Source: Rhodocollybia butyracea (lineage: Eukaryota; Basidiomycota; Agaricomycetes; Agaricales; Omphalotaceae). Taken from it: a DNA stretch of 64,000 nucleotides. A model generated the notes under the pieces. That model made no database searches. It saw only the letters and a program-made list of their open reading frames with translations, and was not told where the DNA came from. Where the stretch lies: assembly GCA_015501585.1 (NCBI GenBank), contig JADNRY010000023.1:310001-374000 (forward strand), written 5' to 3'. The position numbers were made by a program, and so were the translations under genes. Below, piece after piece: positions 11,889 to 47,427 of the stretch (position 1 is the first letter of the stretch; every line of letters begins with the position of its first letter).

Positions 11889-12111
11889 CTGCTCGAAATG
11901 GTACAGTATTTTGGAATCTACGTTCAGAGAAAGGAAAGTCAACCGCAGGTAAGTTCATGACCTTGAAGTCTCACGAGTCAAAGCGGGTGAATGCGTGTGC
12001 GCTTTGTTGGTTGATTATCGCTCTAGCCTGGCTAGCCGTCTTGTAGTTGGCAAAGAAGCTCGTTCGCTAATAAATTCTTGCTGCTCTGAGGAAAGGAAAT
12101 AAAATAGTATC

Positions 12112-17318: not shown

Positions 17319-20300
17319 CTAGAATCTAGATCCATGGGAGAGCTGCTCTAGAGCTCTAGCAATACGCGATAAGTTGCTGTTAGAATTTTCTTCCTGCTCC
17401 CGAGCTTGGCGGGACAGGTTTTCATCAATAGATTCCAAGTGTTTGTTCATCTTCTCCAGAACAGCAAGGAGTGCAGGTGAACCAGTCTGCACTATAATGG
17501 GAGCTTTGTACGCTTGCACGAAATCGTCAACTTTGGATTCCAAGCGCCCGTCCGACTCCGGTGCAGATGGCCCAGTCTGAACCGTATCAGGAACTTCCGG
17601 GACGAAATCGTCAAATTCGTCGTCCAGGATGACTGGGCTGGCTACATAAGGGTCAAGTTCTGGAAACTTGATCATCTCTGTAGCATAACGAATAGGCCGC
17701 ATTTCATCATAAAACTCGCAGTATTCCGGACAGGCTGCATACCCAAGGCAAGCATAGTCTTGTGCACCCTCATTATATTTTTTGATAAGAATCTTGAATG
17801 CATAGATACGCTGGCAAGAGAGATCGATAAGAGCCCAGGCTTTCCAGGACCATGCAGTGGACTTCCCGATGTCAATATCTTTCCCAATATCTAGATCGAC
17901 CTCTGAATCACCACTCTGGAGAGCCTTGTATACTATTTTCTTCATTATGTCCGCAGTGAACTGATGGGCTTGTTTCGTCGTCACCCGGTCGGCAGTGGAA
18001 AATTCGTTAGATATTTCGACTCCTGTCTTTGAGTCATGGGCTACATGAACACAGTAGCGCTGCCATGTGAGTGGGTCGGCCACATAAAAGAATGCGATAT
18101 CATCACCGCCTGCACCCAGTTGCTTACGCATTGGGCAGACATAGTCAAGGACCAATGAACATTCCTCGTCTTCAATGTCTGTCAGCACCAACTTGATTCG
18201 AAGGGGACGTTGGCGGGCAATAAAAGCACAATATAACCATGAGTCCGCCACCTTTGCATCCTCTGAATCTCGGAGCACAGTAACTCTAAAATTCAATGTC
18301 CACGTTTGTCGAGGATCGATAGAGCAAGGCATCACCACACCATTCAAAAGCTCTACCGATTTGACAGGTTTATATTCCTCGTCACCAACGAGGCGATAGA
18401 ATCCAGTGACAGAGGCAATAGTTACGGGGTCCATAGAGGAGACAGCTCGTTTGTTGAAGACCGAAATGGACCCAATGAAATAATCGCTTGCCGAAATGGC
18501 GAATTCCGGATTGGCGACAAGTGGGGGGTCCGACATCAATTTCACGATCACGGGAAAATTAGGTGTTGTCTGGGCTTTGAATTTACGAACCGCTCGAGGT
18601 TTTCCTTCAGGCAAAGTTCCACTAACTTGCTGTACCTCCGGTAGGATATAGGGAGTACTAGGCTTGTAGGCACGGAAGCTGCCTTCAGACAAGGTGCTAA
18701 CATCGCCGGACTTTGTGCAAGAACTAATGTCAATGGGGCAGTACTGAACATATGGTTGCACAGAAGTGGAAGCCTTCGCCGTAAGTTTGACCCCGCTGAT
18801 TATTCCCTCCGCAGATAAAACCCACTCCGCCATGGAAAACTCGTCCTCGGAGTGAGAAGAGCGGAAAATCACTGCCTGATGAGTGATTTCTACGACTCGA
18901 GCAATCACCTTCAGGTCGTGAACATTGAAAGTTTTGAAAAAGAAAGGCTTGCTAATGGACAATTGGCCGACCTTAATTAGTATAGTTGGAATTTCCGGTA
19001 CAGCCCCACGAGACTTCCAACGCAGAAGACGAGCGACAGAAACCGTGACCTTTTCATTGGTTTCGTAGTTCAAATCCTCCACTGAAGTCCATTCTTCTTT
19101 CGTATCACTATAATTTAGAATGCCGTATGCAAAGGGAAAAAAGTTTCCATAGGGATATTCACAGTGGTGCTCTGGCCGATGACGTCCAGCCTGACAAGGA
19201 TTCTGTGTGCTGCAGCAGCTATAGTTTTTGAACCAGGAATCATAATCTGCACGATGGAAGGAGCACGACTTTTCTCCATTTGTGGAATCATGGTACTGCT
19301 TGTTGCATTGAACACAAACAAACGTCTGCTCTTTAGCAGACTCATTCAACTGGGTAGCGAGATCTGTGATGCCATGGATAACGGACGCACTGACAGTGTC
19401 ATTGAGTGATTGCTCCAGACGATCATGATTCTGCTGCAAGACCTCGGAAATGTTGGTGTTGAGCTGCTCCATAATTTTATCATCCACCACAAGCTTCATC
19501 TGGCTGGCGAATTGCTTCACCAAGGCCTCGTCGCCTTTAACAGCATCAATACCTCCATGAGCATCAATGAAACTTGCAGCAGCCTCGTCTTCAGGGTCAG
19601 AAGGAACCGGGCGAGCGAGGATATCCAGCTGAACGCTTTGGTGAATCTGCAGGCTAATCATGAGGTCGTTCGTGCACTGGGTCACCAGTAAAGCACACGA
19701 CGCGAAGCGGTCTTTGTTATGAACGCTCAGGCGCCGAGCAACAGCACTCTGTTTCCGATACGTTTGAATCAGAGCAGCAGACTTCTTGAGCGTATCGTTC
19801 ATACGATCAATGACCTGTCGCGTGGAATCGGTAACGTTGATCTTTTTGAGAGCGGGAAGATGGCTGAGCATGAACGTAACGCGCTGAACAAGGTCTGTGC
19901 ATTTTGTGTCCACGTCTCGAGCGCGCTGTTCAACCGCGATGATAGCTTTTATAATGACGAATGCTGGAGCAACGAAGGGCATAACTTTTCCGAGATCAGC
20001 CAACGAGTCCATCACATCTATTGCGTGCTGAACATAGTCTGTAGCTGTGGAACTTGAGGAACCACTACTGGATTCGGATATGACGTTGTTGATAACGGTG
20101 GCTGCACTTTTGACTACATCAGTAGTAGCTGCACTGCCATCATTGGAGACTACGACTTCACCCACGTAGATCTGGCCTTGTCCTTGGGCATCTTGATGAA
20201 AAATCTCAGCGGGCATGTCCTGAAAAGGCCCAGAGTTGTCATCCACGAAACTGAGTGACGGGTTAAGTTCTGACGAGGTAATCTGAAAGGACATAGGATG

Positions 20301-20924
20301 GCGTACCGAAATATTTCCTCACAACGGGTGCTTAAAGACAATGGATACGCCATTACCAATCGTATAACTTCGGAAGGATCAACAAGAACCACAGTGTTGG
20401 CCTAATTTGTAGATGCTTGGAGATGCTGAACTGGAGACACTGTTTAGACTTACGATTGTTGCTACACCTTTGGAATCATACTCAAATAACATCTTATACA
20501 ACCTCGAAATTTGCCCTTGCTCATCCCTAACCTGGAGGGTTTTAATTAGTTTTCAAACGCAGACTTCTAGATCGACTTACTATTTCGACGTTCTTGCCTT
20601 CTCCAGTATAGGACTTTAAGGCCTCCTTCCAATATCTAACGTGATCCGGCCAGTTCCTAGATAATCCGATAACCTTGATATCCCGTTGCTCAATTTCCAG
20701 TAATCTCTCCGCAAGCGCTTCAAGTTCTGAAAGAAACAACGAAGGGTGAGAGAACACTATTAACTTCAAGCGAGTTGTGAGATGAGGATTAGCCGAAGAC
20801 AGCTAGTATAAGTTACCCATGACTCTCCGCTCCATTGGGGAAACTTGAGGAATCCTGAAGCAGCACGTCCTTCGAATTTGGGCGCAATAGAGCCTGTGTC
20901 AAGAGTAGGTCGTACATGGGACAT
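17319..20924 (-). CDS. Peroxiredoxin-like / MLKL-like helical / Cys-His domain fusion protein, paralogue 1 (1131 aa)
   Basis: The exons are 20924-20817, 20763-20581, 20531-20454, 20401-20307 and 20250-17319, with introns of 53, 49, 52 and 56 nt. The frame is kept at every join (3396 nt). Residues ~1-155 resemble peroxiredoxin-6: GSIAPKFEG, LKFPQWSGESW, VFSHPSLF, IKVIGLSRNW, VRDEQGQISRLYKML, VVLVDPSEVIRLVMAYPLSL. The peroxidatic PVCT segment expected after FSHP is absent. Residues ~215-360 form a helical domain like the N-terminal MLKL/HeLo-like death domains of fungal NLR-type proteins (LADLGKVMPFVAPAFVIIKA, TFMLSHLPALKKI). Residues ~460-520 hold a CHORD-like Cys/His cluster (CVQCNKQYH, SCSFH, YSCC, CQAGRHRPEHHC). 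A long beta-rich region and a C-terminal coiled coil follow. A role in regulated cell death or stress sensing is inference only. Confidence 0.85.
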
Positions 20925-20980
20925 GATGAGTTGCTATTGTTGTTATTAAGTGAGACACAAACTTGACCGCACAGACAAGT

Positions 20981-21107
20981 CTTTATACATACAGAGTTTG
21001 GCGGCGGTCAATCAAATCAAGATCAACTGCTACTAAAATTGATTGGATGCTGGGAATAGATCAGGATGCTGTCTGAAAAACTGCAGTCATATCAGACATT
21101 GTATCAA
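20981..21107 (-). promoter_or_regulatory. Promoter of paralogue 1: TATA box and conserved upstream element
   Basis: On the minus strand ATGTATAAAG lies about 57 bp before the start codon (20981-20990). Further upstream, 21086-21107 carries GTCATATCAGACATTGTATC (plus strand). This element is also found at the matching place upstream of both other paralogues, while the sequence between is much less conserved. This suggests a shared control site. Confidence 0.55.
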
Positions 21108-21298
21108 CGTAGTATAGGAACGAATGAACGTTGAGTTTGAGATGATGGCAAAATTGCCTAACTCCGAGTTGATATCATTCCTACTTAATGATAGAAATGG
21201 TTCATTCAGGTCCCGATTCAACTTCAAGACTGTGCTCATGATTTACTGAACTGCAGGCAGATAGAGTGTGAGAGCATTAAATGTGAAAAGCAGAGCAG

Positions 21299-21536
21299 TG
21301 TCGAGCTTCATGCGCGTCTACACACGAAACTCGTCATATTATCTAAGTATCTTTACAGTATATAATCTACGTACTCATACTGAGACAACAGAGATCTCTT
21401 TCTTCCCAACCACCACCACTACTTCAGTACCTCGGAGATACCTCCCAGAGACAAGTAGGGACTGACCAAATCACAGGCAGATCCCCCGTCGAACTCGATA
21501 CTTGATTCCGAGTATAGACTCGGTCAATGTATCTCA
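21299..21536 (+). repeat. LTR 1 of TRIM-like element (238 bp)
   Basis: It starts TGTCGAGCTTCATGCG and ends CAATGTATCTCA. The first ~200 bp match LTR 2 and LTR 3 almost exactly. Its last ~38 bp match LTR 3 but not LTR 2. Confidence 0.85.
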
Positions 21537-22214
21537 TCTGGAGCCCACCGCCTGAGGGGGGATCCAAGGCAGATCGTCAATACCCCTATTTCATTCCTCT
21601 CGGACTACTCTGACGTCGCTGTCGAACTTCACTCACGTTCATTAACTTTATAAATTCATTTCACTTGCTGACTTCATCGGGCGACTGTCTCATATGTTGA
21701 GCGCGTCGCTTTTCAGCAAGCCCCTATTGCTGCTCCTTCATCCCGCCGCCCTCGCCGTCATTTCGAGAAGGGAACGTGTTGCTGGGATGGGTGCTCGTCT
21801 TGATTTTGAGCTTGTCTTGATCTTGCTCAATGGGTTTCACGAGATTTGGCATGACTGAGATCTGATGATCATATCATTCTCAATACTGGTATTTTCCATC
21901 TGGAGGATGATCTCGACACAGAATTCTCAAGGATCACCTTCTCGTTATCATGTTGGTCACCATTTTGACAATTGCTTCGCAATCATCGACAGCTAGGCTG
22001 CGTCGATTCATCATTTCGTCAATTCTTTAATCGATTATTCACATGTTTATCTTGGCAACACTCTTCCCGTCCATTAATCTCTGGCTCGCGTTGCGCAATA
22101 GCCATTCCAATCTATCTCTACTGTCCTGGGTGTGTCGTATCTCTTGAAGATCAAGAGGACACCGCACCGTATTTTCCGTCTCCTATGTCCGTTTGATGAC
22201 TTCGGAAAGGTGCC

Positions 22215-22380
22215 ACGAGTCGGGACCTTCCAATCCCGAGCCTGTATTTTATCAGTTTCCTTCCTATCCGATAAGCTTTGTCGATAAGCTTCGGTTATCA
22301 CAGTCAGGACCTTCCGATCCCGAGGTCATGATTTATCAGTTCCCTCCCTGTCCAACGAGCTATGTCTATAAGCTCTGGTC
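22215..22380 (+). repeat. Imperfect direct repeat of ~80-90 bp inside the TRIM-like element
   Basis: Two adjacent copies start GGGACCTTCCAATCCCGAG and AGGACCTTCCGATCCCGAG. Each continues through TTTATCAGTT(T/C)CC and ends with ATAAGCT. This is an old local duplication in the non-coding internal region. Confidence 0.65.
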
Positions 22381-22580
22381 CAGTCCACAAGTCATTTCTA
22401 CATGTCCATTATGCCTTCAGCATCTTCACCGCCTCGATACAAAGTGTGTTCAATTTATTAGTCCATTCACATTCCTTTATCTTTCCATTCATCAATGCTG
22501 AGCACCCATATCTTTGTATTGGTGTTCACTTCTTTGTTTCTTCTTTCCCTTTCCCTTACTTTTTTAAAGTAGAGAGGGGA

Positions 22581-22818
22581 TGTCGAGCTTCATGCGCGTC
22601 TACACACGAAACTCGTCATATTATCTAAGTATCTTTACAGTATATAATCTACGTACTCATACTGAGACAACAGAGATCTCTTTCTTCCCAACCACCACCA
22701 CTACTTCAGTACCTCGGAGATACCTCCCAGAGACAAGTAGGGACTGACCAAATCACAGGCAGATCCCCCGTCGAACTCAAAACTTCTGTCTGCCCACAAA
22801 ACAGACTTAAGTTTCACA
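22581..22818 (+). repeat. LTR 2 of TRIM-like element (238 bp, variant 3' end)
   Basis: It has the same 5' ~200 bp as LTR 1. Its last ~38 bp (AAAACTTCTGTCTGCCC ... GTTTCACA) are different. A second copy of the primer-site-like TCTGGAGCCCACCGC follows at 22819-22833. Confidence 0.8.
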
Positions 22819-22833
22819 TCTGGAGCCCACCGC

Positions 22834-23044
22834 GGAAACTCGTCATATTATCTAAGTATCTTTACAGTATATAATCTACGTACTCATACTGAGACAACAG
22901 AGATCTCTTTCTTCCCAACCACCACCACTACTTCAGTACCTCGGAGATACCTCCCAGAGACAAGTAGGGACTGACCAAATCACAGGCAGATCCCCCGTCG
23001 AACTCGATACTTGATTCCGAGTATAGACTCGGTCAATGTATCTC
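22834..23044 (+). repeat. LTR 3 of TRIM-like element (5'-truncated)
   Basis: It lacks the first ~27 bp of the LTR and begins at GAAACTCGTCATATTATC. Its 3' end matches LTR 1. It follows directly on a primer-site copy, which suggests recombination or template switching between two related elements. Confidence 0.8.
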
Positions 23045-23346
23045 AGCAGATGGGCGCTCATGCTGGAGCGTGTGCCACTGATGGCAGTGGAGGATTGCTG
23101 CTATCTTCATAAAGTTGGACAAGGGACAGGCTTATGATTAAGCTTGCATTCATGGTTAAAAGGATTCAATGATTCTGGTACAAAGTGCGCAGCTCCAACA
23201 ATTATCTGGATATTGCAGACAGGAAGAAAAGAGGAGAATTTCATACTTTGTCAGCCAAGAAAAGAAATACTTAGAAAGGTTTGGATTTCTAATTAAGGAA
23301 TCTGAGTGTCAAAGCAAACATATAATGTATCGGTGACTCACACATT

Positions 23347-26300
23347 TCACTTTTTTGTTCTGGATATCTGAACCAGCTGCTCCAGAGCTCTAGCAATCCG
23401 TGCCGAATTACTATTGGGATCCGAGTTACGCTGCTCCTGAGCTTTAACAAGAGCTTCCAACTGTTTGCTTATCTTCTCTAGAACAGCAAGCTGGGCAGAT
23501 GACCCAGTCTGTACCATAATGGGAACTTTTTGAGCTCCCGGGACGAAATCATTGTCATTGGCAGATTCCATGCGGCTGTTCAATCCATCTGCAGCAGCAA
23601 CTGGTGTAGGTGAACCAGTCTGTACTGTATCAGGAACTTTTTGAACTTCCGGGACGAAATCATCAAATTCGTCGTCCATAATGACTGGGCTAGCCACATA
23701 AGGATCAAGTTTTGGAAACTTGATCATTTCTATAGCATAGCGAATAGGCCGTGTTTCATTGTAAAACTCGCCGTATTCCGGACAGGGTGCATACCCAAGG
23801 CAAGCATAGTCTTGAGCACCCTCATTATATTTTTTGATAAGAATCTTGAATGCGTAGATACGCTGGCAGGAGAGATCGATAAGAGCCCATGCTTTCCAGG
23901 ACCATGCAGTGGACTTCCCGAGTTCAATATCTTTCCCAATATCTAGATCGACCTCTGAATCACCACTCTGGAGGCCTTGTGTACTATTGCCTTCATCCTG
24001 TCCACATCAAACTCATGGGGCATTCCCAACGTCAGCCGGTCTCCATTGGACCATGTGCTAGATATCTTGACTACGTTTTTACCGCTGAAATCTGAATCGT
24101 TGGCTACATGAACACAGTAACGCCGCCATGTGAATGGGTCGGCCACATAAAAGAATGCGATGTCATTGCTGTCCGCACTCAGTTGTTTATAAATGGGGGA
24201 GACGTAGTCCAGGACCAATGAGCATTCCTCATCTTCGATGTCTGTTAGCACCAGCTTTATTCGAAGGGGGCGTTGACGGGCAACAAAAGAACGGTCCCAC
24301 CATACGTCCTCCATCTTTGTATCCTTCGAATTCCGATGCACAGTAACTCCAAACTTCAACGTCCACGTTTGTCGAGGATCGATAGAGTATGGCAGTACCA
24401 CACTGTCCAAGAGTTCCATCGACTTGACAGGTTTATATTCCTCGTCTCCAACGAAGCGATAGAAAGCAGTGACAGAGGCAATAGACACAGACTCCATGGA
24501 GGAGACGGCGTGTTTATTGAAAACTGAAATGGACCCAGTGAAACGATCGCCTGCAGGAGCCGCCAATTCAGCGACAAGCGGGGGATCCGAGAGTGACTTT
24601 ACCATCACGGGAAAACTAGGTGTTGTCCGAGCCTTGAATGTTCGAACTGCTCGAGGTTTTTCTTCGGGCAAAGTTCCACTAACCTGCTGTACCTCTGGTA
24701 GGATATAGGGAGTATTAGGCTTGTAGGCGCGGAAACTTCCTTCGGACAAGGTGCGAACATCGCCGGACTTTGTGCAAGAGCTAATGTCAATGGGGCAGTA
24801 TTGAACATATGGTTGCATAGAAGTGGAAGCCTTCGCTGTAAGTTTAACCCCACTAATTGTGCCCTCCTCAGATAGCACCCACTCTGCCATGGCAAACTCG
24901 TCAGCAGCGTGAGAAGAGCGGAAAATCACTGCCTGATGAGTGATTTCTACGACTCGGGAAATCACAGCCAGGTCGTGAACATTAAAAGTTTTGAAAAGGT
25001 ACGGCTCGCTGATCGACAGCTGGCCTACCCTGATGAGAATAGTTGGGATTTCTGGTACAGCTCCGCGAGACTCCCAACGCAGAAGACGAGCGACAGAAAC
25101 CATGACCTTTTCGTTGGTTTCATAATTTAAATCCTCTACCGCAGTCCAGTCTTCTTTGGTATCGTTATAACTAAGGATCCCGTATGCAAAGGGAAAGAAG
25201 TTTCCGTAAGGATAGTCACAATGGTGCTCTGGCCGATGACGTCCTGCCTGACAAGGATTCTGCGTACTACAGCAGCTATAGTTTTTAGACTGTGAGTTGT
25301 ATTGTGCACGATGGAAGGAACAGGATTTTTCTCCGTTGGTGGAATCATGATACTCCTTTTTGCATTGGATGCAGACAAATGTTTGCTCTTTAGCCGTCTC
25401 GTTCATCTGAGCAGCGAGGCCCTTAATACCGTCGATAACAGAGGTACTCACGGTGTCATTGAGTGACTGCTCCAAACGATCCTGATTTTGCTGCAAGACC
25501 TCGGAAATGTTGGTATTGAGCTGTTCCATGACTTTATCATCGATCGAGAGCTTCATTTCACTCGCAAACCGCTTCACAAGCGCCTCATCACCTTTGACAG
25601 CATCAATACCTCCATGAGCGGCGACGAAACTTGCAGCAGCCTCATCCTCAGGATCAGAAGGAACTGGACGAGTGAGGATATCTAGCTGAACGCTCTGATG
25701 AATCTGCAGACTGATCATGAGGTCGTTCGTGCACTGGGTCACCAGTAAAGCACACGACGCGAAGCGGTCCTTGTTATGAACGCTCAGGCGCCGAGCAACA
25801 GCACTCTGTTTCCGATATGTTTGAATCAGAGCAGCAGACTTCTTGAGCGTATCGTTCATACGATCAATGACCTGTCGCGTGGCATCGGTGACGTTGATCT
25901 TTTTGAGAGCGGGAAGATGACTGAGCATGAATGTAACGCGCTGAACGAGATCTGTGCATTTCGTGTCCACGTCTCGAGCACGCTGTTCGACAGCAATGAT
26001 GGCTTTTATAATGACGAATGCAGGAGCAACGAAGGGCATAACTTTTCCAAGATCAGCCAACGAGTCCATCACATTTATTGCGTGCTGAACATAGTCTGTA
26101 GCTTCAGAAACAACGGTGTTCGAAGAACCATTGCCGCTGCTACTGGAATCGGACCTAACATTGCTGACGACCGCGACTGCACTTTTGACTATTTCAGCAG
26201 TAGCTGCACTACCATTATTGGAGACTACGACATCGCCGTCGTAGATATGGCCTTGGCCGTTGACGTCTAGACCAAAAATCTCCGTGGGTATGTCCTCCAA

Positions 26301-27000
26301 GGGCCCAGAGTTGTCGTCCACGCATCTAAGAGTTAGGTCAGGTTCCGAGGAGGTAGTCGGAAAGGACACTGGACAGCATACCGAACGATTTTGTCAAATT
26401 CGGTGACTAAAGACGAGGGATCCGCCAATACCAAGCGTATAATGTTGGAAGGATCAATAAGAACCACGGTGTTGGCCTGGTTTTTAGATATTTAAAGATG
26501 CGGATGCTGAGGACTTTGTATGGACCTACGATTGTCACTGCACCCTTAGAATCGTATTCCGACAACATCCCGTACAACCTTGAAATTACCCCTTGCTCAT
26601 CCTCAACCTAGATGAGACCGTCTTACTTGGTTTTCAAACACAGAGCTAAATCGACTTACTATTTTGACATTCTTGCTCTCCCTGTCATAGGACTGTAAGG
26701 CCCTGTTCCAATATGTATCATCATCTGGCCAGTTTCTGGACAATCCGATAACTTTGATATTCCGTTGCTCAAGATCGGGTAGTCCTCGCAAAAGCGCTTT
26801 AAGTTCGAACTTGAAAGACGAAGGGTGAGAGAACACTAGTGACTTCAGGCAAGTGAGAGGACGGTTAACTGAAGACAGCTAATACGACTTACCCATGACC
26901 TTTGGCTCCACTGGGGAAACTTGAGAGATCCTGAAGCACCATGGCTTTCGAAACTGGGCGCAATAGAGCCTGGATGCACAGTAGGTTGTACGCGGGACAT
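23347..27000 (-). pseudogene. Peroxiredoxin-like / MLKL-like / Cys-His fusion, paralogue 2 (1-nt frameshift)
   Basis: It has the same exon plan as paralogue 1. Start ATG is at 27000 (MSRVQPTVHPGSIAPSFES), a 108-nt first exon is followed by three short exons, and one long exon starts near 26326. The last splice joins VR to CVDDNSGP. The sequence that would be the first Met of an unspliced long ORF is GTG here, which supports the spliced fusion model. All domains are present, including CIQCKKEYH, SCSFH and CQAGRHRPEHHC. One G is missing near 23971-23973 (CTCTGGAGGCC, where the other copies have CTCTGGAG(G/A)GCC). This ends the reading frame at 23943, while the original frame stays open to 23347. 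A sequencing error or a very recent loss are both possible. Confidence 0.82.
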
Positions 27001-27031
27001 CGCTGTTATTCGAGACAGAGAGACGGATAGG

Positions 27032-27158
27032 CCTTTATATAGAGATTGACAATGGTCGATCAACTTGAGATCAACCGCTGAAGTGGATACTTAATGAGCG
27101 CTCAGCGTATATCAGGATGCTGTCTAGAAAATCACAGTCATATCAGACATTGTATCAA
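27032..27158 (-). promoter_or_regulatory. Promoter of paralogue 2: TATA box and conserved upstream element
   Basis: CTTTATATAG (minus strand CTATATAAAG) lies just upstream of the start codon. The 22-bp element GTCATATCAGACATTGTATC.. is at 27137-27158, in the same arrangement as in the other two paralogues. Confidence 0.55.
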
Positions 27159-27275
27159 GGTAGTATAGGAACGAACCAACCTTCAGATTATGACAAGATT
27201 AAGAATTCTTTCATATCATTTTAACGACAGAGTAGGAAGTTCATTCAGGTCCTGAACCTTAAACACAGGCTGCAT

Positions 27276-27760
27276 GTTATTCACAGTCGAGCTCTTCCCA
27301 TTGAATTTCGAGCTTCTTTTTTCTTCTTCGTGCACTCCGTGAGCTCTACGGTCAAAACAAACCTTGTGCATGAGATACATAGGTATGCAGACCGGTAATC
27401 GACATGACCTGACAAGGTAATGGCGTGTAGTTTTGACCAATATCTACGTCGTTTAAGAAGTGATAACGATGTGATTGACGATTGAGACTGTTACGAGGGT
27501 CCAACGTTGATGACATTTGGTCATCTACCCCGCGAGAACCCGCGAGAACCTATGTGGGAACTGACAGAAGAAATCAATGACATAGGTAGAGAGAACTGTG
27601 GTTTGGCTCACTACTCCATCAACGCATCGCCGTGTAGACCGTCCATGATGCATGATGCATGACTGGACCTGAGGTTGGCAACACTGATCACAAGACTCCA
27701 TATCGATTTCGCTCGCAAGGGATTGCAGAGAGTTTGGGCAGCGACGAGGTAGGTGAAGCC
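27276..27760. repeat. Dispersed intergenic repeat, copy 1
   Basis: Blocks are shared, in order, with 32730-33262 and partly with 37780-38130: AATTTCGAGCTTCTT, GTGCATGAGATACATAGGTA, CCAACGTTGATGACAT, CCCCGCGAGAACC and GCTCAC..ATCA.CG. The blocks are separated by indels, so the duplication is not recent. The terpene synthase pair lies between copies 1 and 2. Confidence 0.65.
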
Positions 27761-28440
27761 TCGGCACCTAGAGACATGGGGCTGGCGACAGGAGTGCGAA
27801 AGCGAAGAGGTGCCCGAAGGTTGCTTTATCGGCTCAGTACTAGTAAGGTGGTAAAGAAGTGGATCCTTGGGCGAGTTGTCCTCTTACCCAACAGAATTTT
27901 GCCAGCAGCGTTCCTCGGCGTCTAACAAGCTAATACCTCACAGCTGATCCAGTTGAGGGGTTGGTCCCATTGTCAAGCAAGGAACTCATCCAGAGACGAC
28001 TCTTAGAGTCGAATAGAGATAAGTGAGTCCCGGGCCGGCGAAGATCCTGCGTGCTTTGCCCACCTCGTTCATGGCAGTGCCAATAATACTGACCAGGGAC
28101 CGACAGAAGCTATCATGTTCTGATTCTTGAACCAAAGGAGTCCATTTTGCAAGTCGGACTATAAATTTACCCTTTGCCACATGCCCTTCCTGACGATGTT
28201 TTCGGACAAGTACACCTGCAGCTGCGCTTTGCAAGTTTGCTTGAACCTCGGATGAAAAACTTTCTGGATTGCCGGTTTGGTGCGCATTAGGTCCACAAAG
28301 CCTGTTTAAGTTTTCACCCGGTTCATTTTCACGTCTCCTTCCATTAATTCTCCTCATCCGAGCCATCTCTATCTGTTTCTTCCACCCAGCCCTCTCTTCG
28401 CTCTCACCTTTACTGATCTCCCGAATCTCATCCATAAACG

Positions 28441-29673
28441 ATGTCTGTGACAACCAAATTCATTCTACCAGATCTCGTCGCCTATTGCGATTATGAGCTG
28501 CGCGTAAATCGCCACGGAAAACAGGTCACCGCCGAAACCAAAAAATGGCTCTTCAAAGGCGATAACTTGGTCGGCAGAAAACGCGATAAATACCACGGAT
28601 TAAAGTGCGGTCTGCTAGCGTGTGCGCGCTTTTCATTTGTTCCATGTTCTTTCAAGTCTGATACGCCCAACAGCGATGTGCTATCCTGGTGCAGCCTACC
28701 CTCAGCTCAGACTTTGCAACGACTTTCTCACTTACCTATTCCACATTGACAACCTTTCCGACGATATGGATAACCGTGGAACCTTATCCACAGCAGACGT
28801 CGTGATGGACTCGCTTTACCATCCCAGCCGCTACCAGTCTCTGCGTATCGGTAAAATGACTAGAGAGTGAGTCGACGACTCCTGTGCGTTCCGTTCTTAC
28901 TAACAAGAATCTTTTCGCCACTTAGTTACTGGAAACGACTCATCCGTACTGCGTCACCCGGAACCCAGCAGCGCTTCATCGAAACCTTTGACTTTTTCTT
29001 CCAAAGCGTGACGGAGCAAGCCCGCTCTCGTCGTGAGTGTCTCATTCCAGATCTCGAGTCGTACATCGCCCTTCGAAGAGATACATCAGGTTTGTTCTTG
29101 TTCTTGTTCGCTTACTTGTTATATAGTTCTTAATGTTTTCATGTCAGGGTGCAAGACTTCCTTTGTACTCATCGAATATGCATACAATCTCGACATTCCT
29201 GACGAGGTGATGGACTCTGATATCATTCGCAGCTTGGGCGAAGCTGCAAATGATCTAGTTACGTGGTCTAATGTATGTTGTCCCTTTTACTGTACCTCTC
29301 ACTTGCCCTAATTACGCTCTGTTGGTTCCTGCGTGTATAGGACATATTTTCCTACAATGTCGAACAGTCCGAAAGGGACACGCATAACATGGTCCTCGTC
29401 ATCATGAATCATCACTCCCTCGATCTCCAATCCGCCGTTGACTTCGTTGGTCAACTCTGCAAGCAGTCTATCGACAGATTCAATGCTGACCGTGCAAACC
29501 TCCCATCAAGGGGACCAGATATAGATCGTCAGGTTCAAATCTACGTTAACGGATTAGCGGACTGGATGGTTGCCTCTCTGCATTGGTCTTTCCAATCAGA
29601 AAGGTATTTCGGTAAAAGTGGAAGAGAGGTGAAGACGTCGAGAGTGGTTAACTTGTTACCCAAACGGTCATAA
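28441..29673 (+). CDS. Sesquiterpene synthase 1 (331 aa)
   Basis: The enzyme is expected to cyclise farnesyl diphosphate with Mg2+. Exons 28441-28621, 28674-28866, 28926-29089, 29148-29272 and 29341-29673 sum to 996 nt. The Asp-rich motif is in FHIDNLSDDMD (about residue 90). The NSE metal-binding triad is spliced together as WSNDIFSYNVEQ (about residue 225). YLF..., LRRDTSG and the terminal RYFG...VNLLPKRS also fit basidiomycete class I terpene synthases of about 330-350 residues. It converges on a second synthase at 30389-31687. No cytochrome P450 or other tailoring enzyme is visible nearby. The product cannot be predicted from sequence alone. Confidence 0.92.
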
Positions 29674-30388
29674 CATCAGTTCGTCCTGGCCACGCGCTTG
29701 CTGATCACCTTCGACGCAGGCATCGGCCTTACTCTTTTTTAATTCATTGTTCACCCAGCTCAAACAACCCCATGCCTCTATCTGTATACCTTTCTCCATT
29801 CCAAATTTCGTCAAACATGTATCATTCCAACCATCCTAAAGTGTATCATATCGACCTTGTATTTATATGTCTTGCTTACTCTGGGGTTTTGATCATTCCT
29901 GCCTCCTTCGTCATCTATTTGCCTTATAATTAGCCGGTTAACCTATCTAGTACCTACCTACTTACCTACCTTCATAATCGTGTTTGCAGCCGCTTGCAGA
30001 ATGACCCTTGAATATATCCTGGAACTCCGTTGAAAAATCTTAGGTCTTTGGTATTATAGGAACAAAAATCGGGTCCGGGACCCCTCTTTTATACCAACTT
30101 TCAATCAAGTCAGATTTTTCCCCAGTGACTTGCCTGAGGTCCTATTTCGCGTTTTTCGCGTTTTCAAAGGTTTTGTATATAGCCTGAGGAACACCCTACT
30201 GTCAGATATTTTTGCGTTTGCCTGTCACGGGTGGTACCATCCATTTGATTTCCGTCGGACACTGAGCAGTGAAGGTGACTGAGCGTTCCCGATCACAGTT
30301 CTATATGTAGTACATGTACATACTTAAAAAAGTACTTGTTGAGTCAATATTGAAAAGGTAAGTACATCGAGGTCCCTTATCTATGTAG

Positions 30389-31687
30389 CTATGTAGTGCT
30401 CATTAAATACAGGCCTAATGCTGGAACAAGAAGACTAGCAGCTGCCAGATGCCAGAGGCTTGGCTGGAGGGCGATACTTCTCAGGAAGCCCCTCTTTAAA
30501 TGCAACAATACAGATTGTGCCGGGCTGGGAATGATTGCGGCCACTTGTTTGGGCATCAATTCAACCCATCTAGTCTTTTCAATTTCAGGACCTTTTCCCC
30601 GAAAGTATCTCCAACTGTGGAAATACCAAGAGTCAATACCGCGGACCCACTCTCCCACACTATCACAGTAGCGGTGGATTTGAGGATTGATGACGGGACC
30701 CCAGTCAGGCAAATTCCTGTAATTTTCGAGGACCCTGTCAGCGAGTTCGTCGTTGTATCTGCCAATCCAGTCTATTGCTCCTTGCACATCAAGGTTATAT
30801 TGGTTCATGACGATTGTAACAAGGTTATGGAGGTCATTTCCAACAGCCTGCTCTACGTTGTAGGAGTATATGTCCTGCATAATTGAGCGCGTGAGAATGT
30901 TTAGTTATTATTGTTTTTTAAAAAAGCTCACATTTTGGATAATCAGCATGTCTACGCACCCCATAGTAAATTCATGAATCACTGGATGCTCCATAATCTC
31001 ATCAGGGATGTCCATGGTAAACTCAAGAAGGGTGAAAGACGGTTTTACCCCGATTGTGTCTCTGCGTACTTGAAAGTACGAGTTGACGTCACGAATGTGA
31101 TTATCAGCTCTATCAATTGCTTGCTGGATAATAGAGTTGACATAGGCCTGGTACACCTCGATAAAGCGCCGCTGCGCGGTAGGCGTGGCCCCTTTCTTTG
31201 CAAGCTCCCAAAACCTAAAAATTATCGAGCTTTGTGCTTGTGCAATCAGGGAAGAACGTACTGGCGATGGGCTTCGCCACCGATGAATTCACCCTTAGGG
31301 CGTGGAATGTGGGGGTGGCGGATGGCGTCCATGATGACATCGGCTTGCTTTCGTACGACGTCGGGTTCAGCTACATCTGAATACTCATCGAAAAGGAAGA
31401 AACAGTTCATCAGGTCGCATCCCGAACGAAGATGGGCCGCTTCTGCATGAGGGTATACATATGCGGCCAAGAGACCTAAACAAAAGAGTTGGTATTTCTT
31501 TGAGGTGTAGTAAAACTGACAAACCGAAATCGCAGAGATCGAAGGCCTTCTGCGAGCTTGGATCAAAAGCGTTAAAGCTTCTAAACCAGGCCGACGACAA
31601 GGCTTTCTGTTCCTTGTAAGCAGGGTTGAGATGAACACGCCATGGCCATTTGACAAGTATGTCTGGAATGTAGAACTTGTTTATTGC
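30389..31687 (-). CDS. Sesquiterpene synthase 2, with hydrophobic C-terminal tail (start unclear)
   Basis: Exons recognised in order give [53 protein letters not shown] (Asp-rich motif DEYSD), [28 protein letters not shown] and the NSE motif joined across an intron as [13 protein letters not shown]. This is a second class I synthase, quite divergent from the one at 28441. Two oddities stand out. The obvious ATG (31702-31704) is out of frame with the first recognisable exon, so the start lies in an unseen upstream exon or the 5' end is damaged. After the usual end ([20 protein letters not shown]) there are about 55 extra residues ending in a hydrophobic stretch ([17 protein letters not shown]), which could be a membrane anchor. 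Confidence 0.82.
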
Positions 31688-32729
31688 CTGAGTTTTTGAG
31701 ACATGGGGGAAAGTACTATGCGTGTCTTCTCTTTAAGTATTTTTTCTTTGAGAACATTCTATTGCACCCCTACGCCAGCACCCAAAAATATGGCTCGATA
31801 CTGTGCATGAGAGAATCTTGGACAGCTGTGGGGCTGGAACCAACAGATAGGGATTTTGTGCGGGTTTCGCGATTGCGAAGGGCTCGTCGGAGGTCTTAAC
31901 CCGCAGGTCCTACTTAATGCTTATGATATGGGCCAGCGCTATCGCGTGGAGGTTACTCGGTCCAATTGGCAGAAGGTGAACATCTTTATAGTACAGAAGA
32001 ACTTCTTGTGACTCATTAAAAATCGAAACCCTGTCGCAACAATGGAAGTGGGACTGTAACTCCACTGGAACAGAAGAAACAATGGACATGTCTGGAAAAA
32101 GTGGTTTTAAAACGGAAACGAATAAGAACTTTGCAGTAAATTGTGTGATAATGGGAGTCTGAACAAGAAAGAGCCTACGGCTGTCATTGTTGCAGCCTTC
32201 ATTTTTGTTAACTGTTATTCAATTTTTATGCAAGCTACAGGAAGAAAACGTACTCCACAATGATAGCCACTTCTTCCACTGCTGTATTATATCTTGCTTA
32301 CCCTACCGTTTTGGACATTCCTGTAATCTATTTACCTTACATACTTTATAATTGTGTTCGTAGGCGTCCTATAATCAACAAATTACGACCTCTTGCATCT
32401 TTTCGAATACGGCGGTTTCCCGCCAGAAGCAAAATATCGACGACATGGGCCGAGGAAAACAATCTCTGGAAGCAATCTGCCTTTTACTCGCCTTAGTATA
32501 AGATCAACTACCCGGAAAACTCTTTCATCCTGGGCGAGTATCAACCAAATTTACGGATTTTATGATGAATGTATGTACGCTGGCCGTGCCGCAGGGTTGA
32601 GCTTAGTGGGTTGACGCTCGGTATATGTAGGGAAAAGTTCAAAGGAGAAAGCAATGTGAAAGGAAGAGCAGACGAGTGCAGTGAAGGGTTTTTGCCGGGG
32701 TATTCATCAACATCCCGTAGAGTCGAACA

Positions 32730-33262
32730 TTTCCTGCTCTTCCCATCGAATTTCGAGCTTCTTATTCCGGGTTTTTTCTCTTCATGCGGTCCCGTCGCTA
32801 GCCTATTTATTGACCAGTTCTTTGAAATCTCTTCTGGTCGCAAGAAGTTTTTCGCGTCTTCCCGGCAGCATGCAATATCGTAAATCATGATGATAGTGAG
32901 ATCTACGGTCAAGACACACCGAATTGTGCATGAGATACATAGGTATGCAGACGGGTAATCGACATGAACAGACAAGGCAATAGTCTGCGTAGTTTTCGAC
33001 GAGGATCTACGTCATCTAAGAAGCGATAACGATACGATGGAAACTGTTATGAGGTCCCAGGCGCCCAACGTTGATGACATCTGGCCATTTAAATATTTAC
33101 CCCGCGAGAACCTTGGTTGGAATTGGCAGAAGAATCAGTGGTATATGTAGATAGAGAGAACTGTGGCTCGGCTCACCGCTCTATCACCGTGCAGCTCATG
33201 ATCCGAGGTTGGCAACAGATCTTCTGCTCGCATTGGCAAGGGATTGCAGAGAGTTTGGTCAA
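32730..33262. repeat. Dispersed intergenic repeat, copy 2
   Basis: It shares the ordered blocks of 27276-27760 (AATTTCGAGCTTCTT, GTGCATGAGATACATAGGTA, CCAACGTTGATGACAT, CCCCGCGAGAACC, AGAGAACTGTGG). It carries an extra ~120 bp after the first block. It lies downstream of paralogue 3, where upstream-type sequence of the array is not expected. Confidence 0.65.
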
Positions 33263-33354
33263 AGTACCAGTGACACATGTCGGTTGCACCTTGTCGCCTT
33301 CGTACCCTGCCTGAACGTGGATTTCTTGAGTATTTCTTGAAGCCATATAGTCCC

Positions 33355-33480
33355 CTGACGTTGCCACCCTTTCCGAGCTGAACTATGAATAAGGACCTGC
33401 AGCTAGTATTGTGAACCACTGGTGAACAGTATACAACGAAAATCGATTGGTATCCGGCCTGTGACTGCCAGTGACAAACG
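33355..33480. repeat. Short duplicated block (copy 1; copy 2 at 38385-38515)
   Basis: Both copies contain GACCTGCAGCTAGTATTGTG followed by AACCA, TACAACGAAAATCG and CGTGACTGCC. They bracket paralogue 3 on its two sides, which supports a segmental duplication of gene plus flank. Confidence 0.7.
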
Positions 33481-33742
33481 GATGCAGATATGGTTAGGTT
33501 TATTACCGGCTAGGGACCAAAGGAAATCGCGAGTGCAGTTCAACTAGTAATGATAGGTACTAAGTATTCCAGATATTGCCACAGACAATAGCGCTGCGCG
33601 GCGTACTTCACAGATGCCACTGGTAGATGATGCTCAAGAAAAGAAATAATTAAAGGGGACCTGAAGGGGTCTATATCTGCTATGTTGCCCAAATGCTGCC
33701 TATATAAATACTGCACAGAAAAGTCCATATGACTCACACATT

Positions 33743-36700
33743 TCACTTTTTTGTTCTGGATATCTGAACAAGCTGCTCCAGAGCTTTAGCGATCCGCGCT
33801 GAATAGCCACTGGGACTATTATGCTGCTCCTGAGCTTTAGCAAGCAGCGATAAATTATTATCAAGAGATTCCAAGTGCTTGTTTATCTTCTCCAGAACAG
33901 CAAGCTGGGCAGATGAACCAGTCTGTACTATAATGGGAAGTTTTTGAGCTTCCGGGACGATATCGCCGTCAGTAGACTCCGTGCGCTTGTTGATCTCGTC
34001 CAGAACAACAGCCTGGGTAGATGAATCACTCTGTACTGTATCAGGAACTTTTTGAACTTCCGGGACGAAATCATCAAATTCGTCGTCCAGAATTACCGGG
34101 GTGGCTACATAAGGATCAAGTTCTGGAAACTTGACCATCTCTGTAGCATATCGAATAGGCCGTGTTTCATTGTAAAAATCGCCGTATTCTGGACAGGGCA
34201 CATACCCAAGGCAAGCGTAGTCTTGTGCACCCTCATTATGTTTTTTGATAAGGATCTTGAACGCGTAGATACGCTGGCAGGAGAGATCGATGAGAGCCCA
34301 TGCTTTCCAGGACCATGCAGTGGACTTCCCGATGTCAATATCTTTCCCAATATCTAGGTCGACCTCTGAATCACCACTCTGGAGGGCCTTGTATACTATC
34401 TTCTTCATCCTCTCTGCATCAAACTGATGGGGCATTCTCGTTGACACCCGGTCTCCATTGGAACATTCGCTGGATATTTCAACTACTTTTTGACCCAGGT
34501 TTGAATCATTGGCTACATGAACACAGTAACGCCGCCATGTGAATGGGTCAGCCACATAAAAGAATGCGGTATCATTGCTGCTCGCGCTCAGTTGTTTACG
34601 AGCGGGGCAGACATAGTCTATGACCAATGAGCATTCCTCGTCCTCGATATCTGTCAGCACCAGCTTTATTCGGAGGGGGCGTTGACGGGCAATAAAAGCA
34701 CGGTCCCACCACTTGTCTTCTACTTTTGCATCCTTCGAGTTCCGTTGCACAGTTACTCCAAACTTCAACGTCCACGTTTGTCGAGGATCAATGGAGTATG
34801 GCAGTACCACACCGTCCAAAACCTCTACTGACTTGACAGGTTTATATTCCTCGTCACCAACGAAGCGATAGAAAGCAGTGGCAGAGGCGATAGACACAGA
34901 CTCCATAGAGGCATGTTTATTGAAGACTGAAATGGAGCCAGTGAAATAATCGCTTGCGTTATTTGCAAATTCCGGATTTGCGACAAGCGGAGGATGCGAA
35001 ATTGGTTTCACCATCACGGGAAACTTAGGTGTTGTCCGGGCCTTGAAGGTTCGAGTTGCTCGAGGGTTTCCTTCAGGTACAGTGCCGCTAACGCACTGTA
35101 CCTCTGGTAGGATGTAGGGTGCGCTAGGTTTGGAGGCACGGAAACTTCCTTCGGACAAGGGGCGAACCTCGCCGGACTTTGTGCAAGAGCTGATGTCGAT
35201 GGGGCAGTATTGAATATGTGAATGTGCAGAAGTGGAAGCCTTCGCCGTAATCGTAACCCCAGTGATCATACCCTCCGCAGATAAAACCCACTCCGCCATG
35301 GAAAACTCGTCCTTGGAGGGGGAAGAGCGGAAAATCAATGTCTGATGAGTGGTTCCTACGACTCGAGAAATCGCCGCCAGGTCGGTAGCGTTGAAAGTTT
35401 TGAAAAGGAAAGGCTCGTTGAACGACAGCTGGCCTACTCTGATAAGGATAGTTGGAACTTCTAGCACAGCCCCACCAGCATTCCACCGCAGAAGGCGAGC
35501 GATCGAAACTGTAACCTTTTTGTTAGTTTCATAGTTCAAATCTTCTAGCGAAGCCCATTCTTCCATTGTATTGATATAATTTATGATCCCATATGCGAAG
35601 GGAAAGAAGTTTCCGTAGGGATAGTCGCAGTGGTGCTCAGGCCGATGACGTCCTGCCTGACAAGGGTTCGGCGTGCCACAGCAACGATAGTACCAGGAGT
35701 CATATTCATCATCACGATGGAAAGAACAGGACTTTTCTCCGTTGGTGGAATCGTGGTAATCCTTGTTGCATTGTACACAGACGAATGTCTGCTCTTTCGC
35801 AGCCTCGTTCATCCGAGCAGCGAGACCTTTGATGCCGTCGATGACAGAGGTAGTGACAGTCTCGTTAAGGGTCTGTTCTAGACGATCCTGATTTTGCTGC
35901 AATACCTCGGAAATGTTAGCATTGAGCTGCTCCATGACTTTATCATCGACCGAGAGCTTCATTTCACTTGCAAATTGCTTCACAAGGCCCTCGTCGACTC
36001 TAATCGCATCAATACCCCCATGAGCAGCGACGAAACTCGCAGCAGCCTCATCTTCAGGGTCAGAAGGAACTGGACGAGTGAGGATGTCCAGCTGAATGCT
36101 TTGGTGAATCTGCAGGCTAATCATGAGGTCGCTCGTGCACTGAGTCACCAGTAAAGCACACGACGCAAAGCGGTCCTTGTTATGAACACTGAGACGCCGA
36201 GCAACAGCACTCTGTTTTCGATACGTTTGAATCAAAGCAGCAGATTTCTTGAGTGTATCATTCATACGATCAATAACCTGTCGCGTGGAATCGGTGACGT
36301 TAATCATTTTGAGAGCGGGAAGATGGCTAAGCATGAATGTAACGCGTTGAACAAGGTCTGTGCATTTTGTGTCGACGTCTCGAGCACGCTGTTCGACCGC
36401 GATGATAGCTTTTATAATGACGAATGCGGGAGCAACGAAGGGCATAACTTTTCCGAGATCAGCTAACGAGTCCATCACGTTTATTGCGTGCTGAACATAG
36501 TCTGTAGCTTCAGAAACAACGGTGTTCGAAGAACTATTGCCGCCGCTACTGGAATCGGACCTGACATTGCTGATGACCGCAGCTGCACTTTTGACTATAT
36601 CAACAGTAGCTGCGCTGCCATTACTGGAGACCACGACGTCGCCATTGTAGATCTGGCCTTGACCTTTGACGTCCAGACCAAAAATCTCAGTGGGTATGTC

Positions 36701-37403
36701 CTGCAAAATCCCGGAGTTGCCATCCACGAAACTAAGAGATAGGTCAGCTCATGGGAGGTAGTCTGAAAGGACACGGAATGGCATACCGAAAGATTTCGTC
36801 AAACCCGGTGCTCAAAGACGACGGATACGCCATTACCAAGCGTATAACGTTGGAAGGATCGACAAGAAACATGGTGTTGGCCTGATTTTGAAAAATATTT
36901 TAAGATGGGGAAGCCGGGGACTTTGCATAAACTTACAATTGTCACTACACCATTAGAATCGTATCCCGAAAACATCCCATACAAGCTCGAAATTTGCCCT
37001 TGCTCGTCCTCAACCTGGATTGTTTTAATTAGTTTTTCAGATGCCGAGCTAATTCAACTTACGATTTCGACGTTCTTGCTTTGACTGTCATAGTCCTGTA
37101 AGGCCTTATTCCAATATCTATCCTCATCTAGCCAGTTTCTGGACAATCCGATAACCTTGATATTCCGTTGTTCGATATCCGGTAGTCTTTGCACAAGCGC
37201 TTTAAGCTCCAGCGTAAAAGACGAAGGGTGAGAGAATACTATTGACTTCAAGCAAGTGAGATGGTGGTTGGCTGAAGACAACTAGTATGACTTACCCATG
37301 CCTCTCCGCTCCATTGAGGGAACTTGAGGGATCCTGAAGCCACAGGGCCTTCGAAACTGGGAGCAATAGAGCCTGTCTCAAGAGTAGGTTGTACACGGGA
37401 CAT
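33743..37403 (-). CDS. Peroxiredoxin-like / MLKL-like helical / Cys-His domain fusion protein, paralogue 3 (1150 aa)
   Basis: The start ATG is at 37403 (MSRVQPTLETGSIAPSFEG). Exons of 108, 183, 78 and 95 nt precede the long last exon at 36731-33743; the total is 3453 nt with no break. An in-frame TGA lies just upstream of the long ORF in genomic DNA and no ATG opens it. The long ORF is therefore translated only through the splice GAAATCTTTCG|TTTCGTGGATGG. Domains match paralogue 1: peroxiredoxin-like without the PVCT motif (FSHPSSFTLELKAL), VMPFVAPAFVIIKA helices, and Cys/His cluster CVQCNKDYH, SCSFH, RCCG, CQAGRHRPEHHC. The tail (residues ~1040-1150) has an added ~30-residue repeat-like segment around EINKRTESTDGD compared with paralogue 1. 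Confidence 0.87.
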
Positions 37404-38709: not shown

Positions 38710-40260
38710 ATGTCCTTGGTTCTCTTGATTTTCACGCTTGGTCTGGTTCACCAAGCTACCTCTCATGCTTGTAAGTTGACTCTATGTGTACTGGATTAAA
38801 CCTGACGCGTTCTTTTCAGCGATTTTCCATCCTAGTATGTGGGGATTCAACGTCACAGAACAGACATTTTCTTATGACAATCGGTGCGTGGCACTTGTGG
38901 CTGACCCTCTACAAATCTAATAGCACAGATCGTTTTTAGGCCTGTGGCTCCTCTCACGAACTATACTTTTGATGAGGTAGGTCATCATAGTAACTTTTCA
39001 CGGCTTTCATTCAATCAACAATCTGTTCCTTTCCCAGTGGTGGTTTCATGGTCACCTCGACTTTCCTCCCCATCCTTCCGACATCTTCGAGCTTCCAGCC
39101 GGCGGTGTCGCTACTACAGAAATCGCTTGCGACAAGGGCGCCACATCTTTTTTCGCTGGTAGCGCCGGTGGAGACGTACAACAAGGCGATAACGTTTGTC
39201 CTGGGTCTCCGATCGCAGAATTCCACACAACAGGATTCGACGACCTGAAAGGATGCGCGTTGGCTATCGCTTACAAGAGCAATGCCAGCGAAGTGGTGCC
39301 CGACGACTTTACGGTGTTCAGTGTAAACCAGACGTGCGTCTGGACGAGGTTTACGGATTTCCAGATTCCCGAGAGAATGCCGGAGTGTCCGGATGGAATG
39401 TGTATCTGTGCTTGGTTTTGGATACATTCAGTGAGTCTTCTCATCCAATACGGAACTCGTAGGGACTAAATGAACTTCTTAGCCTGACAGCGGTGGCGAG
39501 CAAAGTCGGTGACCGTCCATTATAATTCTATATCTGGGCACTCATATCTTTCCAGACTACATGACCAGTTTCCAATGCAACATCACTAATGCTACCTCTA
39601 CGGTTCCCTTAGCTGAACCGCAAGTTCCTCGTCGCTGCGGAGCCGACCCCGACAACGGAAAACAGCTAGCATCGCTCTCAAATTGCACTTATGGCGCGAA
39701 GCAGCCGCTGTACTGGTTCCAGGCTGAGAATAATACCGTGAGCAATCTTTGCTCTATATCGTCGAACAATGGAACGATGTTTAATTTATGTATCTTTTAA
39801 ACAGATGTTCGAAGGCGCACACGCTCCGCCGTTCTACAACGATCTCTACAACTTTGTCGATGGGCCTCAGAATGACATATTCGCAGATTCATATATCGAT
39901 ATACCGTCTCCCTCTCCAGTCGCAGCACTGCCTGTTTTGAATCAAACGGTGGCAGCTGGGGTAAATGTTCCTTTTGCCAGCAATTCTACTGCGACTTCTA
40001 GCTCTGGAACAAATCCCTATTCGGATTCGGAGACTGGCGGCTGGTGAGTCTTTCGGCTCTCGTTTAGCGTTTGGGTATGCGCTGACCAGTTTTTCATGTG
40101 AAGTATAACTCTTAGTACCCCGAGTCTGAATACTACTATAACGAAACGTAGTGCAACAAGGGAAGGATGGAAACGGAGTCGTATCGCTGCTCACTTGCAT
40201 CGACGTGGCGTGGAAAGTGGGAGTTTGGCGTGGGCTTTATTCGGGTGGAGGGAGATTTAA
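38710..40260 (+). CDS. AA14-type lytic polysaccharide monooxygenase (secreted)
   Basis: AA14 enzymes are copper oxidases that cleave xylan bound to cellulose outside the cell. The protein starts [18 protein letters not shown], a signal peptide. Cleavage would expose the His of [13 protein letters not shown] as the first copper-brace ligand. The family blocks follow: [35 protein letters not shown] (second His), [18 protein letters not shown] and, across an intron, [12 protein letters not shown]. At least five short introns were placed, with in-frame joins. The last intron (about 40043-40116) leads to a basic tail ending at TAA 40258-40260 ([19 protein letters not shown]), a common feature of these proteins. 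Cys pairs for disulfides are present. Confidence 0.87.
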
Positions 40261-47217: not shown

Positions 47218-47427
47218 AATAAATAAAACATAATTTTCTGGTCCTATTAAGCTTGTGTTTCAGATACATGCAAAAAAGACACGCCTAGTCCATCCAGCGC
47301 GTCGCCCGCGACACGCATGAAAATCGTTTGCGTAGCAACGCGTGTACCACGTGCCTTTTACGCGCTCTGATTGGCTAAACGGCTGCCTAAAAGGTTGATT
47401 GCCTCTTTGTTGTGTATTACGACCACC

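Follow-up and report, generated by a model that had tools for sequence, protein, structure and literature searches.

Why should a peroxiredoxin stand in front of a helical bundle of the MLKL type? The question is raised by three paralogous genes that lie in tandem, all on the minus strand, in a 64,000-nucleotide stretch of Rhodocollybia butyracea DNA (the window). A first-pass annotation had read each gene as a fusion of a peroxiredoxin-6-like domain, an MLKL/HeLo-like helical domain and a CHORD-like Cys/His domain, and had proposed a redox-type sensor joined to a membrane-attack module, as a possible cell-death or self/non-self system. Sequence and modelling place the parts in the order peroxiredoxin-6 (Prx6)-type fold, flexible linker, MLKL/HeLo-superfamily-like bundle, CHORD-like module, beta-sandwich region and helical tail (Table 1). 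The MLKL helical bundle kills animal cells in necroptosis. We find that the fusion is shared by related fungi and that its peroxiredoxin has lost its catalytic residues and is kept under selection.

The tandem fusion was borne out at the gene level. Small exons 1-4 have the same sizes in all three copies (108, 183, 78 and 95 nt), all four introns differ in length among the copies (53/50/50, 49/52/48, 52/53/55 and 56/56/55 nt in copies 1/2/3), and 12 of the 12 introns have GT...AG ends. Spliced in this way, copies 1 and 3 match the deposited R. butyracea proteins P0003 and P0001 letter for letter. The fourth intron, at the fusion junction, has the donor GTACGC in copy 1 and GTATGC in copies 2 and 3, in agreement with the GTAYGC pattern noted earlier; the exact CTNAC that had been ascribed to all three copies is present in copies 2 and 3 only and absent from copy 1. 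If this intron were left unspliced, an internal stop would arise, TAA in copy 2 and TGA in copy 3 (read by eye). An in-frame TGA ahead of the long open reading frame (ORF) of copy 3 had been noted before, and the ATG of copy 1 that is GTG in copy 2 was found as described. A separate long ORF has no conserved start near its 5' end in the three copies, and the first methionine common to all of them lies within the bundle region. DNA identity among the copies is 0.65-0.82 for introns and 0.75-0.87 for exons; as these ranges overlap, conservation by itself would not have told exons from introns. By gene model, each intact gene is predicted to encode one polypeptide of about 1130-1150 residues.

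Copy 2 has a one-base shift relative to copy 3 near 23.97 kb, which the first-pass annotation had not remarked on. Its frame ends at 23943, giving a product of 948 residues, and the remaining coding sequence is found in the frame 24006-23347. The deposited protein for this copy, P0002, reads as though an additional intron had been excised at the frameshift. Copy 2 may therefore be decaying or mis-sequenced. Upstream of the start codons of all three copies (at about 21.1, 27.2 and 37.6 kb), the block GATACAATGTCTGATATGACTG was also observed.

The same fusion occurs in at least 28 proteins from ten genera, whose host clade we take to be the marasmioid Agaricales: Rhodocollybia (4), Lentinula (5), Gymnopus (1), Collybiopsis luxurians (4) and C. 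confluens (4), Dendrothele (2), Stygiomarasmius (2), Tetrapyrgos (2), Moniliophthora (1), Paramarasmius (1) and Marasmius (2). Spliced copy 3 yielded 112 homologues, of which 99 were aligned, 26 of them with the peroxiredoxin part. A profile search with the core (bundle, Cys/His module and beta region) added the two fused proteins of Marasmius crinis-equi and M. tenuissimus. All fusion counts are lower bounds, because the best 120 of 164 proteins were used in the profile search and about 8,000 candidates were scored in each search. Of the 28 alignment rows above the coverage cut, P0103 and P0111 got there through low-complexity N termini of unrelated sequence and are excluded from the fused set. 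The 13 homologues left out of the alignment (P0034-P0042, P0057, P0096, P0108, P0112) showed neither the peroxiredoxin motif searched for nor a precomputed AhpC/TSA domain.

In a tree of the core from 42 selected sequences (14 without annotated peroxiredoxin), rooted at the midpoint, the 28 fused proteins fall into one clade of 32 rows (ultrafast bootstrap 100, SH-like approximate likelihood ratio test 99). The four unfused rows of this clade are two proteins of Marasmius fiardii, which group inside the fused Marasmius rows and likely represent a loss, and P0017 and P0020, which start within the linker that follows the peroxiredoxin and look like truncated models. The fusion label needs four changes on this tree, and a single change would suffice in 0% of 200 bootstrap trees; the 99-row tree agrees, with four changes of which at least three are forced by well-supported branches. 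We read this history as a single gain and a single true loss, the other two cases being gaps in annotation. Several genomes contain two or more fused copies, in some cases on contigs of equal listed length, and two paralogue lines recur in Tetrapyrgos, Dendrothele and Stygiomarasmius. Among the matches listed, the peroxiredoxin-free core was found in Agaricomycetes, Mortierellomycotina, Umbelopsis, Bifiguratus and chytrids (group names as we take them to apply), and the aligned non-fused relatives have about 34-51% identity to copy 3 over the core. Its distribution marks this core as old and widespread among fungi. Two family members that look fungal, P0112 and P0094, are deposited as Salix suchowensis and as part of a Chlamydiales assembly, and are probably contamination.

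That the N-terminal domain belongs to the Prx6-type fold, as had been suggested, is clear from AhpC/TSA Pfam scores of 41.6 bits (spliced N terminus of copy 3), 39.5 (copy 1) and 38.7 (whole P0001) against a cut-off of 26, and from PDB matches to LsfA/Prx6, with 25-30% identity to 1-Cys peroxiredoxins in structural alignments. The catalytic residues, among them the Thr and Cys of the PxxxTxxC enzyme motif, are gone, however: the peroxidatic Cys, its partner Thr and the catalytic Arg were each found in 0 of 28 fused proteins (the P0007 gene model skips the segment of the peroxidatic Cys), and 12 of 26 proteins counted, copy 3 included, have no Cys anywhere in residues 1-160. Many structural residues are kept even though the catalytic ones are lost, and a tryptophan (W74) has been gained that is invariant in 28/28. 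In the spliced frame, the ratio of nonsynonymous to synonymous substitution rates (omega) was 0.51 (0.31-0.81), 0.39 (0.24-0.64) and 0.40 (0.23-0.71) for the three copy pairs, with all bootstrap intervals below 1, and the fold was modelled with predicted local distance difference test scores (pLDDT) of 83-95 from residue 11 to 160. Because the fold is modelled intact, omega is below 1 and W74 is newly invariant despite the lost catalytic residues, we conclude that the domain is under purifying selection for a non-catalytic use and is not decaying. The linker after it has the motif [DN]xxGxGx[IV]Y (residues 175-183 of copy 3), which 21 of 28 fused proteins share and which lies in a region modelled with pLDDT below 50.

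By profile and by modelled fold, the helical domain resembles the N-terminal domain of MLKL, as the first-pass annotation had it. MLKL was the family matched by 44 of 45 members and was also favoured in hhalign controls, and the top row of the fold comparison was the MLKL N-terminal domain, a four-helix bundle. The Pfam MLKL_N scores of the window copies (22.5-25.5 bits) lie just below the cut-off of 27, which the relatives P0076, P0106, P0172, P0174 and P0175 exceed; PF22215.2 is in the precomputed annotation of P0002 and P0003, not of P0001. The proteins are not MLKL proper: a scan of all three long exons at E <= 10 gave no kinase family. Nor do they have the membrane helix of HeLo or CC-RPW8 effectors at the extreme N terminus: the bundle starts at residue 229-251, after the pseudo-peroxiredoxin and the linker. 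NB-ARC and NACHT domains were not reported by the Pfam scan of the window's copies. Among the relatives scanned, P0184 (Bifiguratus adelaidae) is the sole case with a partial NLR-type NPHP3_N match ahead of the core, either a real fusion or a mis-joined model.

Downstream of the bundle, all eight Cys/His ligands are each present in at least 97 of the 98 rows with a letter at that position (99 aligned). They follow CHORD order, with C-x13-C-x2-H and CC as in RAR1 and CHP-1, and the module has profile similarity to the CHORD of both proteins; the spacing of the first CHORD Cys pair and its closing C-x4-H were used in comparing ligand order. Pfam CHORD itself had no match in the window copies and gave 13.8 bits in the relative P0184 (cut-off 24.6). 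The likeness to CHORD stands by ligand order and profile similarity. We regard the module as a shortened CHORD-like domain with a predicted zinc-type site. Elsewhere in the window, an ORF at 47371-48126 (plus strand) encodes another Cys/His cluster of CHORD-like type (CxxC ... SC ... CC ... C), without a match in the Pfam scan. In the helical tail, R1107, L1108 and S1110 are conserved in at least 90% of the 99-row alignment.

What, then, might a dead enzyme do in this position? That relatives keep the same fusion suggests its reuse as a recognition or control module. The explanation we favour, tentatively and short of an even chance, is that a non-catalytic recognition or scaffold domain was set on a conserved MLKL-like effector, and that binding to it relieves inhibition. 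The old core would be a membrane-active or signalling effector kept inactive by the other domains. The ancestor of the marasmioid Agaricales would have acquired a peroxiredoxin at the N terminus of this core; having ceased to be catalytic, the domain would have become a protein-binding module, either a lid that binds a partner or a bait (or decoy) for some molecule directed at the true peroxiredoxin. Partner binding would relieve inhibition, and the bundle would then oligomerise. The architecture can be read directly; cell death, the ligand and the gating are what we infer from it. Thioredoxin domains are among the integrated domains of plant immune receptors (available part of PMC4759884), which we count in favour of this explanation.

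The rates of the parts bear on it in both directions. Among the three local copies, the pseudo-peroxiredoxin varies much more than the bundle (omega 0.39-0.51 versus 0.02-0.03; linker 0.32-0.50), and mean identity in 24 of the 26 fused rows (all but P0007 and P0009) reaches 0.73 in the bundle, against 0.52 in the peroxiredoxin and 0.32 in the linker. The beta region is about as variable as the peroxiredoxin (0.54-0.57 in the same proteins). Two observations speak against a recognition domain in the simple form of a variable sensor: two genus groups have a peroxiredoxin about as conserved as the bundle, and synonymous divergence (dS) of segments between copies spans 0.24 to 1.68. Given this dS range, gene conversion among the copies is possible. 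Strong conservation of the core across fungal phyla is unusual for a fast-evolving allorecognition gene, and the cell-death or self/non-self role suggested in the first-pass annotation is putative.

A bolder form of the favoured explanation, which we think improbable, is an NLR-free immune sensor in one protein, in which a CHORD-like zinc switch would connect a captured, disarmed peroxiredoxin, acting as bait for attackers of host redox defence, directly to a conserved MLKL-type executioner.

A serious competitor, though on balance an unlikely one, is that the core is a conserved cytosolic scaffold or a trafficking or chaperone-type protein, with the bundle a structural relative only and the peroxiredoxin an added docking domain. 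CHORD proteins such as RAR1 are co-chaperones, the bundle sits internally, and the core keeps the identity given above in the aligned non-fused relatives and occurs in fungi as far apart as chytrids and mushrooms. The consistent matches to MLKL (by members, hhalign controls and fold) and the several fused copies per marasmioid genome argue against it. We judge it similarly doubtful, and slightly more so, that the pseudo-peroxiredoxin is an oligomerisation module, pairing with itself or with a working peroxiredoxin and so setting the spacing or state of the bundle. Prx6-type folds form dimers and rings, and the fold here is intact, with many structural residues kept and the catalytic ones gone. 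In such a case, redox input could arrive indirectly from the partner. Hetero-oligomers of peroxiredoxin isoforms have been reported for Prx1/AhpC types (available part of PMC13038412). Against this, a scan at E <= 10 of two fused N-terminal stretches of the window gave no match to the C-terminal 1-Cys peroxiredoxin family PF10417, which the canonical P0115 has in its annotation. Sequence cannot separate the recognition or decoy form from the oligomer form.

The redox-type sensor of the first-pass annotation, in its ordinary sense of a peroxide sensor acting through its own cysteine, has the Prx6-type fold in its favour and is otherwise largely refuted: because Cys, Thr and Arg are missing in 28/28 and many of the proteins have no Cys in the domain at all, direct input by the peroxidatic Cys is, as judged from these residues, excluded, and indirect input via a partner is possible. 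Mis-joining of two adjacent genes in annotation, for which one might cite Lentinula P0113 and P0114 (models of 168 residues in which a short, divergent tail comes right after the peroxiredoxin, as if intron 4 were read through), has a negligible chance: the three local copies and the separately annotated genomes of ten genera all have the same in-frame junction, and a conserved start before the bundle is lacking in the local copies. P0113 and P0114 may be short isoforms or split models.

Table 1. Positions of the fusion genes, their junction introns and the parts of copy 3 in the window
Feature	Position	Strand	Details
Copy 1	20924-17319	minus	exons 20924-20817, 20763-20581, 20531-20454, 20401-20307, 20250-17319; 1131 aa; deposited P0003
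Copy 2	27000 to about 23347	minus	exons 27000-26893, 26842-26660, 26607-26530, 26476-26382, 26325 onward; frameshifted
Copy 3	37403-33743	minus	exons 37403-37296, 37245-37063, 37014-36937, 36881-36787, 36731-33743; 1150 aa; deposited P0001
Copy 1 fusion-junction intron	20251..20306	minus	56 nt
Copy 2 fusion-junction intron	26326..26381	minus	56 nt
Copy 3 fusion-junction intron	36732..36786	minus	55 nt
Copy 3 pseudo-peroxiredoxin domain, residues 8-158	36722..37382 (introns included)	minus	Pfam AhpC-TSA; PDB matches LsfA/Prx6; lost catalytic residues
Copy 3 extra helix before bundle, residues 229-250	36446..36511	minus	AlphaFold model; outside MLKL match; like hG of basidiomycete MLKL-like domains
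Copy 3 MLKL-like helical bundle, residues 251-389	36029..36445	minus	
Copy 3 CHORD-like Cys/His module, residues 473-523	35627..35779	minus	C473 C476 C490 H493 C505 C506 C512 H517
Copy 3 beta-sandwich region, residues 540-1045	34061..35578	minus	
Copy 3 C-terminal helical tail, residues 1098-1149	33749..33904	minus	predicted helices

Other features of the window include two C-terminal pieces of terpene synthase (PF19086) between copies 2 and 3 (29341-29670, plus; 30392-30904, minus) and a piece of an AA14 lytic polysaccharide monooxygenase (38981-39466, plus). Three related tandem ORFs on the plus strand (1028-1657, 9920-10528, 12074-12757) encode an unknown protein, with no Pfam match in the two that were scanned. 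Reverse transcriptase, RNase H and zf-RVT were found at 54156-56516 (minus) and in adjoining ORFs to about 59.8 kb, presumably resembling an element of the long interspersed nuclear element (LINE) type.

In the literature searched, a scope that most subscription journals fall outside, no paper on this architecture was found; its parts have known counterparts. The bundle differs from mammalian MLKL in being internal and in having no pseudokinase match. It is like the basidiomycete MLKL-like domains (BaMLKL, in the available part of PMC9815663), both being four-helix bundles of the MLKL/HeLo/Goodbye superfamily that are preceded by one more helix, described there as hG. That study concerns NLR N termini, whereas no NLR domain was found in the window copies, in which the bundle has a pseudo-peroxiredoxin ahead of it and a zinc module and a beta region behind. 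The fusion offers a concrete starting point for asking how MLKL-like proteins are gated outside NLRs, and the peroxiredoxin-free core is a fungal family that pairs MLKL-like and CHORD-like modules under deposited names that are mostly "hypothetical protein".

With CHORD proteins (RAR1, CHP-1) the Cys/His module shares C-x13-C-x2-H followed by CC and the profile similarity; unlike them, it begins with C-x2-C, has 11 rather than 14 residues before the CC pair, and lacks a Pfam CHORD match in the window copies. The N-terminal domain has the fold of the 1-Cys peroxiredoxins LsfA, yeast Prx1 and Prx6, at the identity already given, and differs from them in its missing Cys, Thr and Arg and in being joined to other domains. 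Selected across a whole clade and coupled to an MLKL-type bundle, it is a clear case of an enzyme fold turned into a non-catalytic module. In contrast to the plant NLRs with integrated thioredoxin domains (available part of PMC4759884), the proteins are fungal and have no nucleotide-binding domain that we found. By analogy, both may join a redox-fold domain to an immune-type protein, and the NLR-free sensor, if true, would represent an integrated decoy whose origin is separate from that in plants.
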